From: Planococcus sp. PAMC 21323
GTDB taxonomy: Bacteria; Bacillota; Bacilli; Bacillales_A; Planococcaceae
DNA: 64,000 nt
Direction of reading: 5' to 3'
Assembly (NCBI RefSeq): GCF_000785555.1
Contig: NZ_CP009129.1
Span: 1,798,001-1,862,000, forward strand
Shown: positions 19,863 to 48,726 of the stretch, in pieces
How the letters are laid out: each line of letters starts with the position of its first letter
Numbering within the stretch: the stretch's first letter is position 1
Program-made: the position numbers and the translations under genes
The notes under the pieces: generated by a model
What the model was told of the DNA's origin: nothing
Databases searched by the model: none
The model's input: the letters and a program-made list of their open reading frames with translations, nothing else

Positions 19863-20621
19863 TTATTCTCTCACTGTCTTTGGAATAATTGTCAGCAAAT
19901 GATATTCAGCCGGAGCACCTAACCTAAGATGTAAAGTCGTTGTGCCGAATCCATTTGTAATCAGTTCAATTCGATCATTTTTATATTTCATAGCACCTTT
20001 TTTAAACATTCCAAATGGACCTACCCGAATTTGACCGCCATGTGTGTGCCCAGCAAGTAACAAATGGGCTGAATATGGCTTTTTAATCTTCCAAAAATCA
20101 AAAGGTGTATGTGAAATAAAAATCACGGTATCTTGTTTCTCAACATTGCTAAATGCGTTTTGTAACCCATCAGGCTTATATGCAAAATGATCAATTCCAA
20201 CCAACTTCAATTGTGAATTGTTAAATAAAGAAACTGATTTATCTTCTAATATAATTACATCGTATTGATCAAATATTTTTCTAAGAGCTTGTTCATCTAC
20301 TTCTCGGTCGTTATTTCCCCAGACAAAATAGACAGGTGCAAGAGAGCGTAAGTTTTTAACGTTTTTAGCTACTCGTTCAAGTGGTACACCTTTTTCAACT
20401 AAATCCCCACCAATTACAATTACATCCACAGGTAAATTGGTAAATTCTGCTTTAATACTTCTTCGGTGGATGTCAGCAATAAACAGCAAATTAAATGGCT
20501 CAAAAGGTTTTTTTGCAGGCAAGCTAATTGTTTTTTTCACAACATTTTCTGAAAAAGCATTTCGTATCATATACAGCAGCAGAGATAATGCTAAAAATCC
20601 AAACCGCATTAAATATTTCAT
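19863..20621 (-). CDS. ypbG: YpbG-like membrane-anchored metallophosphoesterase
   Basis: Calcineurin-like phosphoesterase of 252 residues with one N-terminal hydrophobic segment (about 5-18). The metal-binding motifs appear in order: FIADIHRRS (D and H), VIGGDLVEKG, WGNNDRE (Asn in the GNxD-type site), FISHTPFD and LAGHTHGGQ. Substrate unknown. ATG at 20621 follows AAAGGAAG. Position between ypdA and the ypbE-recQ region matches B. subtilis ypbG. Confidence 0.88.
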   Translation of the reverse strand: MKYLMRFGFLALSLLLYMIRNAFSENVVKKTISLPAKKPFEPFNLLFIADIHRRSIKAEFTNLPVDVIVIGGDLVEKGVPLERVAKNVKNLRSLAPVYFVWGNNDREVDEQALRKIFDQYDVIILEDKSVSLFNNSQLKLVGIDHFAYKPDGLQNAFSNVEKQDTVIFISHTPFDFWKIKKPYSAHLLLAGHTHGGQIRVGPFGMFKKGAMKYKNDRIELITNGFGTTTLHLRLGAPAEYHLLTIIPKTVRE

Positions 20622-43598: not shown

Positions 43599-44501
43599 AT
43601 GAAGAAAAGACAATTAGGTACAAGTGGGCTTGAGGTTAGTGAAATCGGCTTTGGCTGCATGTCACTACCTACTGATGAGAAAGATGCAGGACGAATTGTT
43701 GATGAAGCAATTGCTCAAGGCATTAATTATTTTGACACGGCCGATTTATACGACAGAGGAGAAAACGAAGAAATTGTCGGCAAAACACTAAAGCATCACC
43801 GAAATAATATCGTTCTCGCCACAAAAGTAGGAAATCAATGGAGCAACAACTCTGATGAGGTCCAGTGGAATCCAAGTAAAGATTATATAAAAAAACAAAT
43901 TCACGAAAGTTTGAAGCGATTGCAAACTGATTATATCGACTTGTATCAATTACACGGTGGCATGATTACTGATAATGCCTTTGAAACAATCGAGGCATTT
44001 GAAGAATTGAAAAAAGAAGGATTAATTCGTGAATACGGCATCTCTTCTATTCGTCCAAATGTTATTAATCGTTTTCTTTCCGAAAGCGATCTGACGTCTA
44101 TTATGATGCAATACAGCTTATTAGATCGTCGTCCTGAGGAATGGCTTGATACTATTCAACAATCAGGAGGCTCTGTAGTGACGCGCGGTACTTTAGCAAA
44201 AGGTCTTTTAACTGCCGAAGGTCTTGAACGAGCAAATAAAATTGATGGATATTTATCTTACGAGTCAGAAAACCTAAAAGACACTTTGCAAAAGCTTATG
44301 AACATTCACAGCAATCTTCACGCATTGTCTTTGCATAGTATCTTGCAACATCAAGCAATCGGATCGGTTGTAACAGGCGCTAGCTCTCCAGAACAAATCA
44401 AATCGACTATCAAAGCATATGAAACTAACATCTCACAAGAACAAGTAAAGCAAGCAAAAGCTGTTACACGTCAAGAGGTTTACAAAGAACATAGAGATTA
44501 A
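43599..44501 (+). CDS. yqkF: Aldo/keto reductase, YqkF-like
   Basis: NADPH-dependent carbonyl reductase fold of 300 residues; substrate unknown. The catalytic tetrad is visible: Asp46 and Tyr51 in FDTADLY, Lys76 in ATKVG and His119 in YQLHG. ATG at 43599 follows GAGGTGG; an in-frame ATG five codons upstream overlaps that site. It is divergent from nudF, as in B. subtilis. Confidence 0.9.
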   Translation: MKKRQLGTSGLEVSEIGFGCMSLPTDEKDAGRIVDEAIAQGINYFDTADLYDRGENEEIVGKTLKHHRNNIVLATKVGNQWSNNSDEVQWNPSKDYIKKQIHESLKRLQTDYIDLYQLHGGMITDNAFETIEAFEELKKEGLIREYGISSIRPNVINRFLSESDLTSIMMQYSLLDRRPEEWLDTIQQSGGSVVTRGTLAKGLLTAEGLERANKIDGYLSYESENLKDTLQKLMNIHSNLHALSLHSILQHQAIGSVVTGASSPEQIKSTIKAYETNISQEQVKQAKAVTRQEVYKEHRD

Positions 44502-44572
44502 GCGTTTGTCGTCTGTAGATCAATAAATATAGTCATCAATCGTTTATTTTGTAACCTTAAAAATCTTATTTA

Positions 44573-44623
44573 AAAAATAGGCACTGAACTCTTATAAACA
44601 CGAGAGCTTCTATGCCTATTTTT
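44573..44623 (+). terminator. Probable terminator after the aldo/keto reductase
   Basis: Stem AAAAATAGGCA/TGCCTATTTTT with a 29-base loop and T-rich tail. The long loop lowers certainty. Confidence 0.6.
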
Positions 44624-44725
44624 ATTGTCTTTAACCTCAATTAAATTAACTCGAGAGCTTCTATTAATATGCATTAATAATACTCAAAAAACTCGTAGTT
44701 ACTATAGTCTTTATAAGCTCCCGAG
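44601..44725. repeat. Three related 14-base words in an AT-rich spacer
   Basis: CGAGAGCTTCTAT occurs at 44601-44613 and 44652-44664, and an inverted relative (TTATAAGCTCCCGAG) at 44711-44725. The 422-base spacer between the aldo/keto reductase and the SLH phosphoesterase holds no convincing gene. The words could be regulator sites or remnants. Confidence 0.5.
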
Positions 44726-44838
44726 AAAAAGAATACTAAATTTTCTAAAAATATGGAAAAATAAGTTGTTTTTTTATTTTTATTTGTTATTATGAATAGA
44801 TAGAATCACTTTTAAGTTAAAAAATAAAATAAGGAAGT

Positions 44839-44892
44839 GAAACTGTAGGCATTTTTACACAAGTCAATGCAAGTCGCAAAGTTTCTTTTTTT
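44839..44892 (+). promoter_or_regulatory. Possible leader hairpin before the SLH phosphoesterase
   Basis: GAAACT and AGTTTC can pair around a 34-base loop and are followed by seven T, 31 bases before the coding start. It resembles an attenuator, but the stem is only six base pairs and no known riboswitch motif is present. Confidence 0.3.
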
Positions 44893-44923
44893 GTATGCAA
44901 TACCCATTAAAGGAGGATGAAAA

Positions 44924-47257
44924 ATGATAAAAAAGATTTTTACTACTGCAGCTGCATTAACATTAGTCCTAACAAATGCTAGTTTAGCACCATTAGCAGC
45001 TACAAGCTTTGAAGAACCGAGTAATGTCAAACCCGCTGATTATGCTACAGATGTCAGTTTGAATCCAACGTTAGAAGCGATCGTTAAAGATTCTACAGGG
45101 GCTGCTATTAACACCGTTGACTTTAAAAAAGGATTTAAGTATGACTTCGCTAGTAGCAATAACATGACGGGATTTGAAAACGATGCTGCTGAGAACCCTC
45201 TCTCTTCAAGTATCCCAACAAATTCTACTCCTTTAACGGACCAAAAAATTGATGCAATCGCCAAAAATGATAATAAAACTGCCCTTACGAAAAGTAGTAA
45301 TGGTTTCCCATCTCAACGCTTTGTTGTTGATGTATCTAAAGATATGGCTGCCGGAAATGCTATCGAGATTTACTGGGAAGGTAAAACACTTGCAAACGGA
45401 TTAGCAAACTTATCTGCATGGGATTACAAAGCCAATAGCTGGATTGCTTTGAGCCAACAAGAAGGTAATTCAAAAGGCAACGAAATTGTCTTGTCAGCCG
45501 AAATCGATAAAGAAAGATTTGTTAAGGACGGAAAAGTCCAAGCAATGGTCCATGACTCTGGTACTGTAACGAATTCTAAAGATGAAGACTTTACGATGTT
45601 ATGGTTTTCTGACACGCAATATTACGCTGAAGACTTTCCTGATGTTTGGACTTCTATGACTGACTGGATGATTAAAGAATTTAAAAACAAAACATTTGAA
45701 TATGCTATGCACACTGGTGACGTAGTCAACCAAGTGGATAAACCAGATCAATGGGAAGTTGCCAATAAAAACTTTGACCGCTTGGATGAAGCTAATATTC
45801 CCTATGGTGTTCTCGCAGGAAATCATGATGTTTCTATCGACACGCTTAACAATACTTACGATTATACAATTTTCGAAAGATATGTTGGACTGTATCGCTT
45901 CCAAGACAAACCTTGGTTCGGTGGATCTATGAATGATAAAAATCAAAACCATTATGATTTGTTCTCATTTGGAGACCACGATTTTATCTTCCTTTATCTT
46001 GGTTTTGGCACTAACGGTTCTGCTGAAACTGTTGCATGGGCTAATAAAGTGCTTAAACAATACGAAAATCGCAACGCTATTCTTGGCATGCACGAAAATA
46101 TCAACTCTTTAGCCCAATATGTAACAGATGAGGCCAGAACTGTAAGCCGAGAAATTGTTAATCCGAATAACAACGTCAAAATGGTGCTTAGCGGCCATCA
46201 CCACGGTTCAAATTACCGAGTAAAAGATGTAACAAATGAAGACGGTTCTAAACGGGAAGTATTAGAAGTGTTAGGTAATTACCAAGGCAACACTGCTCCT
46301 GACCGCGGACAAGGTTACCTACGTTTGTTAACATTTGATCCAACTGACGAAACATTGGATTTTGTTACGTATTCTCCATATTTAAACGATTACGATTTTG
46401 ATCAGTTTGATCCAGCGAAAGAAAGCTTTACTGCTAATTTTGATTTAGCTGATGTCGAAGCTAAACCAAACCCAAGACAAATTGAAACTGATTACTTAGC
46501 TGTCAATATCTATACCGATCAAGCGATTGGCCAAGTTAAAAATGTGAAATCAGGCGACAAAGCTACCGTTCAATGGAAAGGTCTTAGCGAAAAAACAAAC
46601 TACCAATGGTATATAAACATGATCAACGCTGCTGGCGAAAGTGAAAAATCCCCAGTTTACCAGTTTACGACTGGCGTAAAAGAACCTGATCCAGAGCCGG
46701 AGCCAGAACCAACTAAACCTACATTCCCAGACGTTACACCTGAAAAACCCGACTGGGCATATGAAGCTATTGAACGTATGGCTGGCAAAGGAATTATTCA
46801 AGGTTACCCAGACAAAACGTTTAAATGGAGAAATAGCATTGAAAGACAGCATGTTTCATTAATGTTTACTCGTGCTATACCAGAACTGAAAAGCAAACCA
46901 CCTTACAAACTATTTAGCGATGTTCCTGTAGGGTATAAATATTTCGAACCAATTATGGCAACTCAACAAGCTGGAATTGTTGAAGGTTACGACAATAAAT
47001 TCCGCCCAGCCGGTATGCTCACTCGCCAAGAAATGGCGAAGGTATTAGTTGTAGCATTTGATATTAATGCAAAAGGGTCACATAAATTCCCAGACGTTGA
47101 TCCAAATGGATGGTCTGATCCATATATTGATGCATTATACGCTGCCGGTATCACAGTTGGTTCGCCTGATGGCAAATTTAATCCTAAAGCGGATGTTACT
47201 AGAGCCGAGTTTGCAGTATTTATGGACAGAGCATTAACTTACACTAAAAAACAATAA
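44924..47257 (+). CDS. Secreted SLH-anchored metallophosphoesterase
   Basis: A 777-residue exported protein. Residues 1-26 form a signal peptide ending in APLAA. Residues 27-220 are a beta-rich domain I do not recognise. A calcineurin-like phosphoesterase domain spans about 222-480: FSDTQ (230-232), HTGDVVN (266), AGNHD (300-302), GMHEN (390) and SGHHHG (425-427). Its first motif is DxQ rather than DxH. A fibronectin-III-like domain (about 505-583) and a DPEPEPEPEP linker lead to three SLH repeats (about 600-655, 660-715, 720-775) that should bind secondary cell-wall polymer. ATG follows AAAGGAGG. The product sits on the cell surface, perhaps scavenging organic phosphate or phosphodiesters (inference). 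Confidence 0.88.
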   Translation: MIKKIFTTAAALTLVLTNASLAPLAATSFEEPSNVKPADYATDVSLNPTLEAIVKDSTGAAINTVDFKKGFKYDFASSNNMTGFENDAAENPLSSSIPTNSTPLTDQKIDAIAKNDNKTALTKSSNGFPSQRFVVDVSKDMAAGNAIEIYWEGKTLANGLANLSAWDYKANSWIALSQQEGNSKGNEIVLSAEIDKERFVKDGKVQAMVHDSGTVTNSKDEDFTMLWFSDTQYYAEDFPDVWTSMTDWMIKEFKNKTFEYAMHTGDVVNQVDKPDQWEVANKNFDRLDEANIPYGVLAGNHDVSIDTLNNTYDYTIFERYVGLYRFQDKPWFGGSMNDKNQNHYDLFSFGDHDFIFLYLGFGTNGSAETVAWANKVLKQYENRNAILGMHENINSLAQYVTDEARTVSREIVNPNNNVKMVLSGHHHGSNYRVKDVTNEDGSKREVLEVLGNYQGNTAPDRGQGYLRLLTFDPTDETLDFVTYSPYLNDYDFDQFDPAKESFTANFDLADVEAKPNPRQIETDYLAVNIYTDQAIGQVKNVKSGDKATVQWKGLSEKTNYQWYINMINAAGESEKSPVYQFTTGVKEPDPEPEPEPTKPTFPDVTPEKPDWAYEAIERMAGKGIIQGYPDKTFKWRNSIERQHVSLMFTRAIPELKSKPPYKLFSDVPVGYKYFEPIMATQQAGIVEGYDNKFRPAGMLTRQEMAKVLVVAFDINAKGSHKFPDVDPNGWSDPYIDALYAAGITVGSPDGKFNPKADVTRAEFAVFMDRALTYTKKQ

Positions 47258-47300
47258 GCACAAGAAAGGAGCCTGCATTTGCAGGCTCCTTTCTTGTGCT
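47257..47300. terminator. Very strong bidirectional terminator
   Basis: A perfect 21-base-pair stem around a 2-base apex, starting at the last base of the phosphoesterase stop and followed by AT-rich sequence. It probably serves both this gene and the convergent yqkE gene. Confidence 0.85.
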
Positions 47301-47318
47301 TTATATTAATAATTCATA

Positions 47319-47528
47319 TTAGAACTTATTTCCTTTATCGCCGTGACGTTCTAATAATTCTGCAAACGACAAATTCTTTTCTCGTTCTTTACGCTCAAAT
47401 AAACGCTGCGCTTCTTTTTCTTCTTCTAGCTTTTGTTCTTCTTTGAGTAAATCTTTTTTCGTTTCTTTCAATTTCGATAGCATATCTTCTGAAAATAAAC
47501 CGGTAGATTCTTCTTTTCTTTTAGCCAC
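47319..47528 (-). CDS. yqkE: Small charged coiled-coil protein, YqkE-like (DUF3886)
   Basis: A 69-residue protein rich in Lys and Glu: LSKLKETKKDLLKEEQKLEE is a coiled-coil stretch and REKNLSFAELLERHG is the conserved C-terminal end of this family. Function unknown. GTG at 47528 follows AAGGAGAG with 6-base spacing; upstream in-frame codons overlap the thiolase gene. It follows the thiolase gene by 13 bases. Confidence 0.75.
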   Translation of the reverse strand: MAKRKEESTGLFSEDMLSKLKETKKDLLKEEQKLEEEKEAQRLFERKEREKNLSFAELLERHGDKGNKF

Positions 47529-47541
47529 GGGTGCTCTCTCC

Positions 47542-48726
47542 TTATGGACGTTTAATGATTGTTGCGATTCCTTGACCGCCACCTATACATAAAGTTGCAA
47601 GACCTGTTTTCGCATCTCGTTTCATCATTTCATGTAATAACGTTACGAAAATTCGTGTACCACTAGCACCAATCGGGTGACCAATGGCAATTGCTCCCCC
47701 GTTAACATTTAAAATATCATGGTTAAATTCTAGTTCGCGATCAACTGAAATTGATTGAGCTGCAAAGGCTTCATTAGCTTCGATCAACTCGATATCGCCA
47801 AGTGACATATCCGCTTTAGTCAACGCATTTTTCACAGCTTGTACCGGACCAATTCCCATGATAGACGGGTCCACCCCTGCTGTTCCACTAGCTACAATTG
47901 TTGCAAGTGGCGTCAGACCTAGTTCTTGTGCTTTGGCTTTTGACATTACCACAACTGCTGCCGCACCATCGTTAATGCCCGATGAATTTCCGGCTGTTAC
48001 ACTGCCTTCTTTTTTAAATGCTGGACGCAATTTTGCTAGTTTTTCTTCGTTAGAGCTACTTTTCACGTACTCATCAGTCTTAAAGATGATTGGATCGCCT
48101 TTACGCTGAGGAATTTCCACTGGCACAATTTCGTCGTCAAAACGACCTGATTCAATTGCTGCTGCTGCACGCGCTTGTGAACGTGCTGCGAATTTATCTT
48201 GTTCTTCTCTTGTAATATCATATCGATCACATAAGTTTTCTGCTGTAACGCCCATGTGATAATCGTTGAATGCACATGTTAGTCCGTCAGTAATCATGCT
48301 ATCAACTACTTTTTGATCTCCCATGCGGAAACCACTGCGGGCATTTTCCATTAAGTAAGGCGCACGACTCATGTTCTCCATTCCGCCAGCTACCACAATT
48401 TCTGCATCCCCTGCATAAATCGCTTGGTAAGCTAATTGAATCGATTTTAATCCAGAGCCACAAACCTTATTAATTGTCATAGCTGGAACAGATTCTGGAA
48501 GTCCTGCATTAATTGATGCTTGACGAGCCGGATTTTGACCAAGTCCCGCTTGAAGCACATTCCCCATAATAACTTCTGACACTTGCTCAGGTTGAATGCT
48601 CGCACGTTTTAGCGCCTCTTTAATAACGATTTCCCCAAGTTTTGTTGCTGGAACATCTTTAAGAGACCCTTGAAATGAACCTACTGCAGTTCGGACAGCG
48701 CTTACAATAACGATTTCTTGTGACAT
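47542..48726 (-). CDS. Acetyl-CoA acetyltransferase (thiolase)
   Basis: Interconverts two acetyl-CoA with acetoacetyl-CoA, or splits beta-ketoacyl-CoA. The 394-residue protein has the acylated Cys in [10 protein letters not shown] near residue 88, the [10 protein letters not shown] histidine motif and the CIGGGQG second cysteine. It is divergent from the HMG-CoA lyase gene with 81 bases between the starts. Together they suggest leucine or ketone-body breakdown, but biosynthetic (ThlA/AtoB-like) use is equally possible. Confidence 0.93.

Follow-up and report, generated by a model that had tools for sequence, protein, structure and literature searches.

A 777-residue SLH-bearing protein of Planococcus sp. 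PAMC 21323 is probably a short member of the ShfP-like phosphoesterases

The open reading frame at 44924 to 47257 (+) of the window, the 64,000-nucleotide stretch of the Planococcus sp. PAMC 21323 genome analyzed here, comprises 777 codons without an internal stop and encodes a protein of 777 amino acids that is probably a short SLH-bearing member of the ShfP-like phosphoesterases. It is not a gene of unknown kind, and it adds a member to a family already described. The gene, its domain order, its conserved catalytic residues, and the homology of its core to ShfP-type proteins are computational observations. Regarding function, we consider it quite likely that the product belongs to the ShfP/YvnB-like radiation as a metal-dependent phosphodiesterase that is secreted, tethered by its SLH repeats, and active on surface glycerol-phosphate polymers or glycerophosphodiesters. 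Being a 777-residue ShfP relative that has neither the lamin-tail domain nor the additional Ig-like domains, and whose host genome encodes no ShfA, it offers a compact protein for testing the core by itself.

Domain architecture and catalytic fold

Pfam placed a calcineurin-like phosphoesterase domain (Metallophos, PF00149) at residues 226 to 428 (E 8.1e-9, 36.6 bits versus a cut-off of 21.5) and three SLH repeats (PF00395, whole-protein E 4.9e-34) in the protein. The full-protein AlphaFold2 model had a mean pLDDT of 88.9 and a pTM of 0.49, the latter leaving the relative placement of the domains unsure. The features of the gene and its 3' flank are as follows.

44924 to 45001, + strand: putative signal peptide, residues 1 to 26 (translation read by eye; low pLDDT at residues 1 to 25)
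45002 to 45103, + strand: opening strands of a probable Ig-like domain in two parts, residues ~27 to 60 (model strands at 33 to 36, 41 to 44, and 49 to 53)
45128 to 45574, + strand: probable galactose-binding/CBM-like jelly roll, residues ~69 to 217 (AlphaFold2, VIA-align)
45584 to 46453, + strand: calcineurin-like phosphoesterase domain, residues ~221 to 510 (PF00149 at 226 to 428, and fold matches)
46475 to 46681, + strand: remainder of that probable Ig/FnIII-like domain, residues ~518 to 586 (strands within 518 to 583; weak fn3, Pur_ac_phosph_N, and Ig matches)
46724 to 47254, + strand: three SLH repeats, residues 601 to 777 (PF00395 in three stretches)
47257 to 47300, no strand assigned: perfect 20-bp inverted repeat, a probable bidirectional terminator, whose first base is the final one of the stop codon

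The SLH region superposed on the SLH domain of Sap (3pyw) with a VIA-align Z of 22.2 (rmsd 2.5 over 174), and the FnIII-like part at ~540 to 583 gave sub-threshold Pfam matches only (Pur_ac_phosph_N, E 0.03; fn3, E 0.063). The 5'-nucleotidase C-terminal domain was absent among the seven Pfam families found in the protein at E up to 10, and an LTD query gave no lamin-tail match in it. The sequence-only reading of an S-layer-anchored enzyme of the calcineurin-like type held, with PF00149 and three copies of PF00395 in place and a surface phosphodiesterase role probable. Its further view that this domain order belonged to no standard family did not survive, since the core, including residues 27 to 220, aligns with the C-terminal region of proteins of the ShfP/YvnB type and SLH fusions have been published.

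The catalytic fold was matched best by Lmo2642 (Z 22.2) and by the glycerophosphodiesterase GpdQ (Z 21.3, rmsd 2.6 over 224 residues), which are tied, followed by purple acid phosphatases (up to 21.2), 2nxf (20.7), SMPDL3A (19.8), and Rv0805 (19.5). Because several enzyme types match about as well as GpdQ, the fold leaves the substrate unfixed. GpdQ (3d03) has the catalytic fold in common with the window protein at 16% identity, but its 274-residue chain has no room for the flanking modules. The first metal motif of GpdQ is DxH. A rather unlikely alternative is that its substrates are nucleotides, cyclic nucleotides, or extracellular DNA and not glycerol-phosphate polymers; the nucleotides suggested in the sequence-only reading gained no direct support. 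The matches to Lmo2642, 2nxf, and Rv0805, about as strong as the other fold matches, fit this alternative, as does the naming of extracellular DNA as a possible target by the authors of the ShfP work (PMC11488536); against it, the same genome holds a separate SLH-bearing protein of the 5'-nucleotidase type (judged by eye), and glycerol release requires ShfP, the nearest studied relative (PMC11488536). PhoD resembles the window protein in its calcineurin-like domain, N-terminal FN3, and surface role (PMC11488536). Identity with PhoD was rejected, as PF09423 matched nowhere in the genome, the window protein included, while the B. subtilis control was positive.

Relation to ShfP/YvnB

ShfP (YvnB) of B. 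subtilis is described as a secreted phosphoesterase of the calcineurin-like type, with an Ig domain into which the catalytic domain is inserted. Extracellular glycerol in sporulating cells requires ShfP and its catalytic residues; alanine at these residues led to partial or total failure of complementation, and the variants tested for glycerol were about as low as the deletion. The same source places ShfP in a large radiation whose members are fused to Ig, FN3 (which maps to Pur_ac_phosph_N), LTD, and S-layer homology domains, and its authors propose lipoteichoic acid as a putative likely substrate (all from PMC11488536). In addition, yvnB is repressed by YvmB/PchR (PMC4992311), and the localization of ShfA is treated alongside yvnB in PMC13232292.

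The core of the window protein aligned with P0002, a protein of 1289 residues, at 34% identity over 566 columns (residues 50 to 605 against 754 to 1287). In three of four loci from one genus, D927, D963, NHD997-999, H1080, H1114, and H1116 fall on the published numbers of the residues that were mutated in ShfP, with Gln at 929; the fourth (L150) has the same motifs at other residue numbers. Judging from length and residue numbering, three proteins of 1289 residues, P0002 included, are putative ShfP orthologues. The window protein agrees with P0002 in homology and in all five conserved motifs, DxQ being the first, and it combines a signal peptide (by eye) with a surface-adhesion fusion in the form of three SLH repeats. 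What it has in common with ShfP-like enzymes is the signal peptide, the N-terminal beta-sandwich, the series DTQ/GD/GNHD/H/GHxH, and the Ig/FN3-like end. On the contrary, two marks of ShfP proper, the N-terminal lamin-tail domain (present in P0002) and the ShfA partner, are absent. In the 1289-residue ShfP type, the core is preceded by the lamin-tail domain and by additional Ig-like domains, with no SLH found, whereas the window protein consists of the signal peptide, the core, and three SLH repeats.

Literature searches for a calcineurin-like phosphoesterase with S-layer homology or lamin-tail domains returned the ShfP work and a paper on the ExeM nuclease. Those for a metallophosphoesterase with an SLH domain surfaced only corynebacterial envelope work, those for a Planococcus S-layer phosphoesterase found no literature, and no assay of an SLH-type ShfP-like member was found in the literature searched.

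Active site and the DxQ motif

All catalytic residues are present in the window protein: D230-T231-Q232, D266, N300-H301-D302, H390, and H425-x-H427. Eight of these positions (D230, T231, Q232, D266, N300, D302, H390, and H425) were invariant in all 60 rows of one alignment (A2) and all 30 rows of another (A1), the two overlapping in content. Since Gln is invariant in both, DxQ is the rule among the relatives, and it is also found in ADPRibase-Mn; the suggestion that DxQ makes this protein odd was consequently dropped. ADPRibase-Mn (2nxf, assigned in PMC4334965; human ADPRM) resembles the window protein in D-x-Q and in fold at 13% identity, the comparison covering motif and overall fold. For the human enzyme, PMC4334965 gives D[V/I]Q as the rule and a working motif whose Gln is modeled as a ligand of metal 1, and it reports that Q27H lowers efficiency by ~11- to 27-fold depending on the substrate. 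Metal use may differ from that of DxH enzymes, which would be neither new nor a sign of inactivity.

The remaining two positions vary. His301 is Arg in 9 of 30 rows (A1) and 3 of 60 (A2), and the tree requires at least three changes between His and Arg at this position (78 scored rows). His427 is replaced in 11 of 30 (A1) and 11 of 60 (A2) rows, counts taken from the alignments, as a sequence pattern missed 17 of 79 rows. A mainly wall-binding or scaffolding role, with catalysis weak or being lost, would accord with the two A1 counts and with a catalytic domain flanked by beta-sandwich and SLH modules. However, the window protein has every catalytic residue, His301 and His427 among them, and the eight motif positions never vary in either alignment, so that we regard this role as very unlikely and retain the metal-dependent phosphodiesterase as the preferred reading.

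As a separate observation, the nine A1 relatives with NRD for NHD (L012, L016, L017, and L022 to L027) all belong to the genus of the window by kinship, and six of them also lack the last histidine of GHxH.

The N-terminal region

Residues 27 to 220 had no Pfam match above cut-off. Matches to PUA, Cadherin_FAT4_N, and other families were set aside because they were below the cut-offs and differed between members. AlphaFold2 modeled the region alone with a pLDDT of 89.0 and a pTM of 0.80. This confirmed the beta-rich character proposed in the initial reading, but the single domain assumed there looks like two parts, namely strands of a split Ig-like domain and a jelly roll. The outcome that the initial reading named as refuting it, a match of this region to an established family, was obtained at the family level, as the core match to ShfP/YvnB-type proteins begins at residue 50, although Pfam gives no cover.

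Structurally, the jelly roll was matched best by residues 213 to 426 of 9eui_D, from the phage phi812 baseplate (Z 12.4, rmsd 2.9, 135 residues); the match spans model residues 43 to 191, corresponding to 45128 to 45574 of the window. A second chain of that baseplate gave a Z of 10.5, and the best match outside it a Z of 8.4; Foldseek returned one match at E ≤ 0.001 for the N-terminal model. In VIA-align, the jelly rolls of beta-glucuronidases (Z ~7.4 to 8.4) and CBM22, CBM29, CBM32, and CBM61 (Z 6.5 to 7.6) followed, values below 8 being weak support when taken singly. This run of carbohydrate-binding folds suggests that residues ~69 to 217 probably form a galactose-binding/CBM-like jelly roll. 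Proteins that do not bind sugar, IFT25 and the RetS sensor domain, match similarly at a Z of about 7, so the fold alone does not prove sugar binding.

Residues ~27 to 60 look like the start of an Ig-like domain, the other strands of which would follow the catalytic domain. When the two flanks of the catalytic part were joined, the window protein matched Big_5 weakly (16.0 bits, E 0.021), L048 more strongly (20.6 bits, E 7.4e-4), and L074 above the cut-off of 23.6 (24.0 bits, E 6.9e-5); the matches covered Big_5 positions 10 to 105 of 105 for the window protein and L074 and 10 to 83 for L048. The fourth join, that of L090, had no Big_5 match. None of the four tails matched Big_5 alone, and heads alone or joins in the wrong order, a control that covered the window protein, L048, and L074, left the window protein without a match and brought the other two no higher than 15.0 bits. 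The Ig_Rha78A_N and fn3 matches of the window protein sit in the tail, and joining brings them no gain. The join test is moderate evidence for a split Ig-like domain, and this putative arrangement agrees with the statement published for ShfP (PMC11488536).

Distribution and origin of the short form

Residues 27 to 589 behave as one unit. In the host family, 37 of 250 genomes (own included) had a match at E ≤ 0.001, three of them weakly, and the A1 profile matched 41 of 398 genomes of the host class, four weakly. Within the genus of the window, 21 genomes (own included) carry the gene and at least 20 do not, and this patchiness indicates that the gene is dispensable. A scan of named genomes yielded at least 592 confirmed stretches, of which the best 80 name Bacillales-type genera; the closest named core among the matches listed was that of Planococcus halocryophilus HM12 (89%). 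Alignments A2 and A3 comprise 59 of these best 80 loci together with the window. The core is not confined to Bacillota, because an 11.9-Mb Nonomuraea record matched at 28% over residues 32 to 583. One search of viral contigs, with the core as query, yielded no relative that was confirmed.

Architecture was scored in 84 proteins (82 loci, the window, and P0002) by means of a single LTD query and an SLH model made for this analysis, so that the counts may miss divergent domains: 12 had three SLH repeats and no LTD, 22 had SLH and LTD, 47 had LTD and no SLH, and 3 had neither. The 12 SLH-only proteins are that of the window and those of 11 loci whose titles name Planococcus or Planomicrobium. With the Planococcus-type rows and two short ORFs (L060, 485 residues; L103, 506 residues) set aside, the scored proteins measured 1097 to 2285 residues. 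At least 80% of the protein was covered by two of the 80 records that matched in the plasmid collection, from Bacillus badius (NZ_CP082364.1) and Paenibacillus cellulositrophicus (NZ_CP045296.1). Like the window protein, these long relatives have the core followed by three SLH repeats (~33% identity over 91 to 93% of the query); unlike it, they reach ~1850 to 2100 residues with two lamin-tail-like stretches before the core. Their sole annotation is "S-layer homology domain-containing protein."

In a quick tree of 79 cores, left after 11 rows contained in others were dropped, the 21 Planococcus-type rows formed one set (SH-aLRT 97), and all 11 of these that were scored had the short SLH form. 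A single origin of this form is the simplest reading. It may have arisen from a long SLH form by loss of the LTD/Ig array. Within 7-kb flanks, 6 of the 11 Planococcus-type loci had the right-side thiolase and following genes in common, 4 had the left-side aldo/keto reductase, and four had neither side.

Host setting and proposed function

The 3.2-Mb host genome is rated 100% complete, and profile searches, each with a positive B. subtilis control, found neither ShfA (YabQ; PF09578, TIGR02836) nor SpoIVA in it. From these two missing genes, the host would be a non-sporulating one, and the sporulation role of ShfP is not transferable to it. A true functional counterpart of ShfP in an ShfA-ShfP-like glycerol signal is accordingly the least credible reading: homology and a similar active site speak for it, and the missing ShfA and SpoIVA in so complete a genome, together with SLH in place of the lamin-tail domain, speak against it.

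For anchoring, the protein has three SLH repeats and the genome one PF04230 gene (CsaB-type pyruvyl transferase), and binding to the wall is predicted from these. The genome also holds five sulfatase-family genes. LtaS belongs to the sulfatase family, and these genes make the synthesis of glycerol-phosphate polymers plausible.

Under the preferred reading of a tethered phosphodiesterase, the protein would be exported, and its SLH repeats would bind pyruvylated wall polysaccharide while the jelly roll would partly hold the substrate. A dinuclear center, with Gln232 in place of the usual His, may then split phosphodiester bonds in glycerol-phosphate polymers or glycerophosphodiesters at the cell surface, presumably yielding glycerol or phosphate compounds. 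The likely role would lie in growing cells, as wall-polymer turnover or salvage of phosphate or glycerol, and not in sporulation signaling as in B. subtilis, because ShfA and SpoIVA are lacking. More tentatively, and with considerable doubt on our part, non-sporulating Planococcus may keep in a minimal S-layer-tethered ShfP core the original activity of the family, the trimming of glycerol-phosphate polymers on the surface of growing cells, with the B. subtilis sporulation signal a later derivative of it; the NRD forms in some lineages of the genus would be natural variants of altered chemistry.

Two further genes, named by eye, lie within 10 kb of the csaB-type gene, one for a second SLH-bearing metallophosphoesterase, of the 5'-nucleotidase type, and one for a sulfatase-family LtaS-like protein.

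L153:3375-5546 (-), L153:7064-8200 (-), and L153:917-2794 (+): neighboring SLH 5'-nucleotidase-type, csaB-type, and LtaS-like genes

Flanking DNA and other observations

In 44400 to 47700, no sigma-70 promoter stands out (6 candidates versus a shuffle mean of 9.8), and terminator-like sites in the scanned stretch numbered 3 versus a shuffle mean of 2.6, the inverted repeat accounting for two on the - strand and one on the + strand. This repeat is probably a terminator shared with the convergent ORF at 47319 to 47582. The window contains another PF00149 calcineurin-like gene at ~20037 to 20492 (-) (G000:C1:1818037-1818492), in an open frame of 267 residues. Finally, the long intergenic stretch that precedes the gene contains a 13-bp direct repeat (cgagagcttctat), which may be due to chance, at 44601 to 44613 and 44652 to 44664, with starts 51 bp apart.
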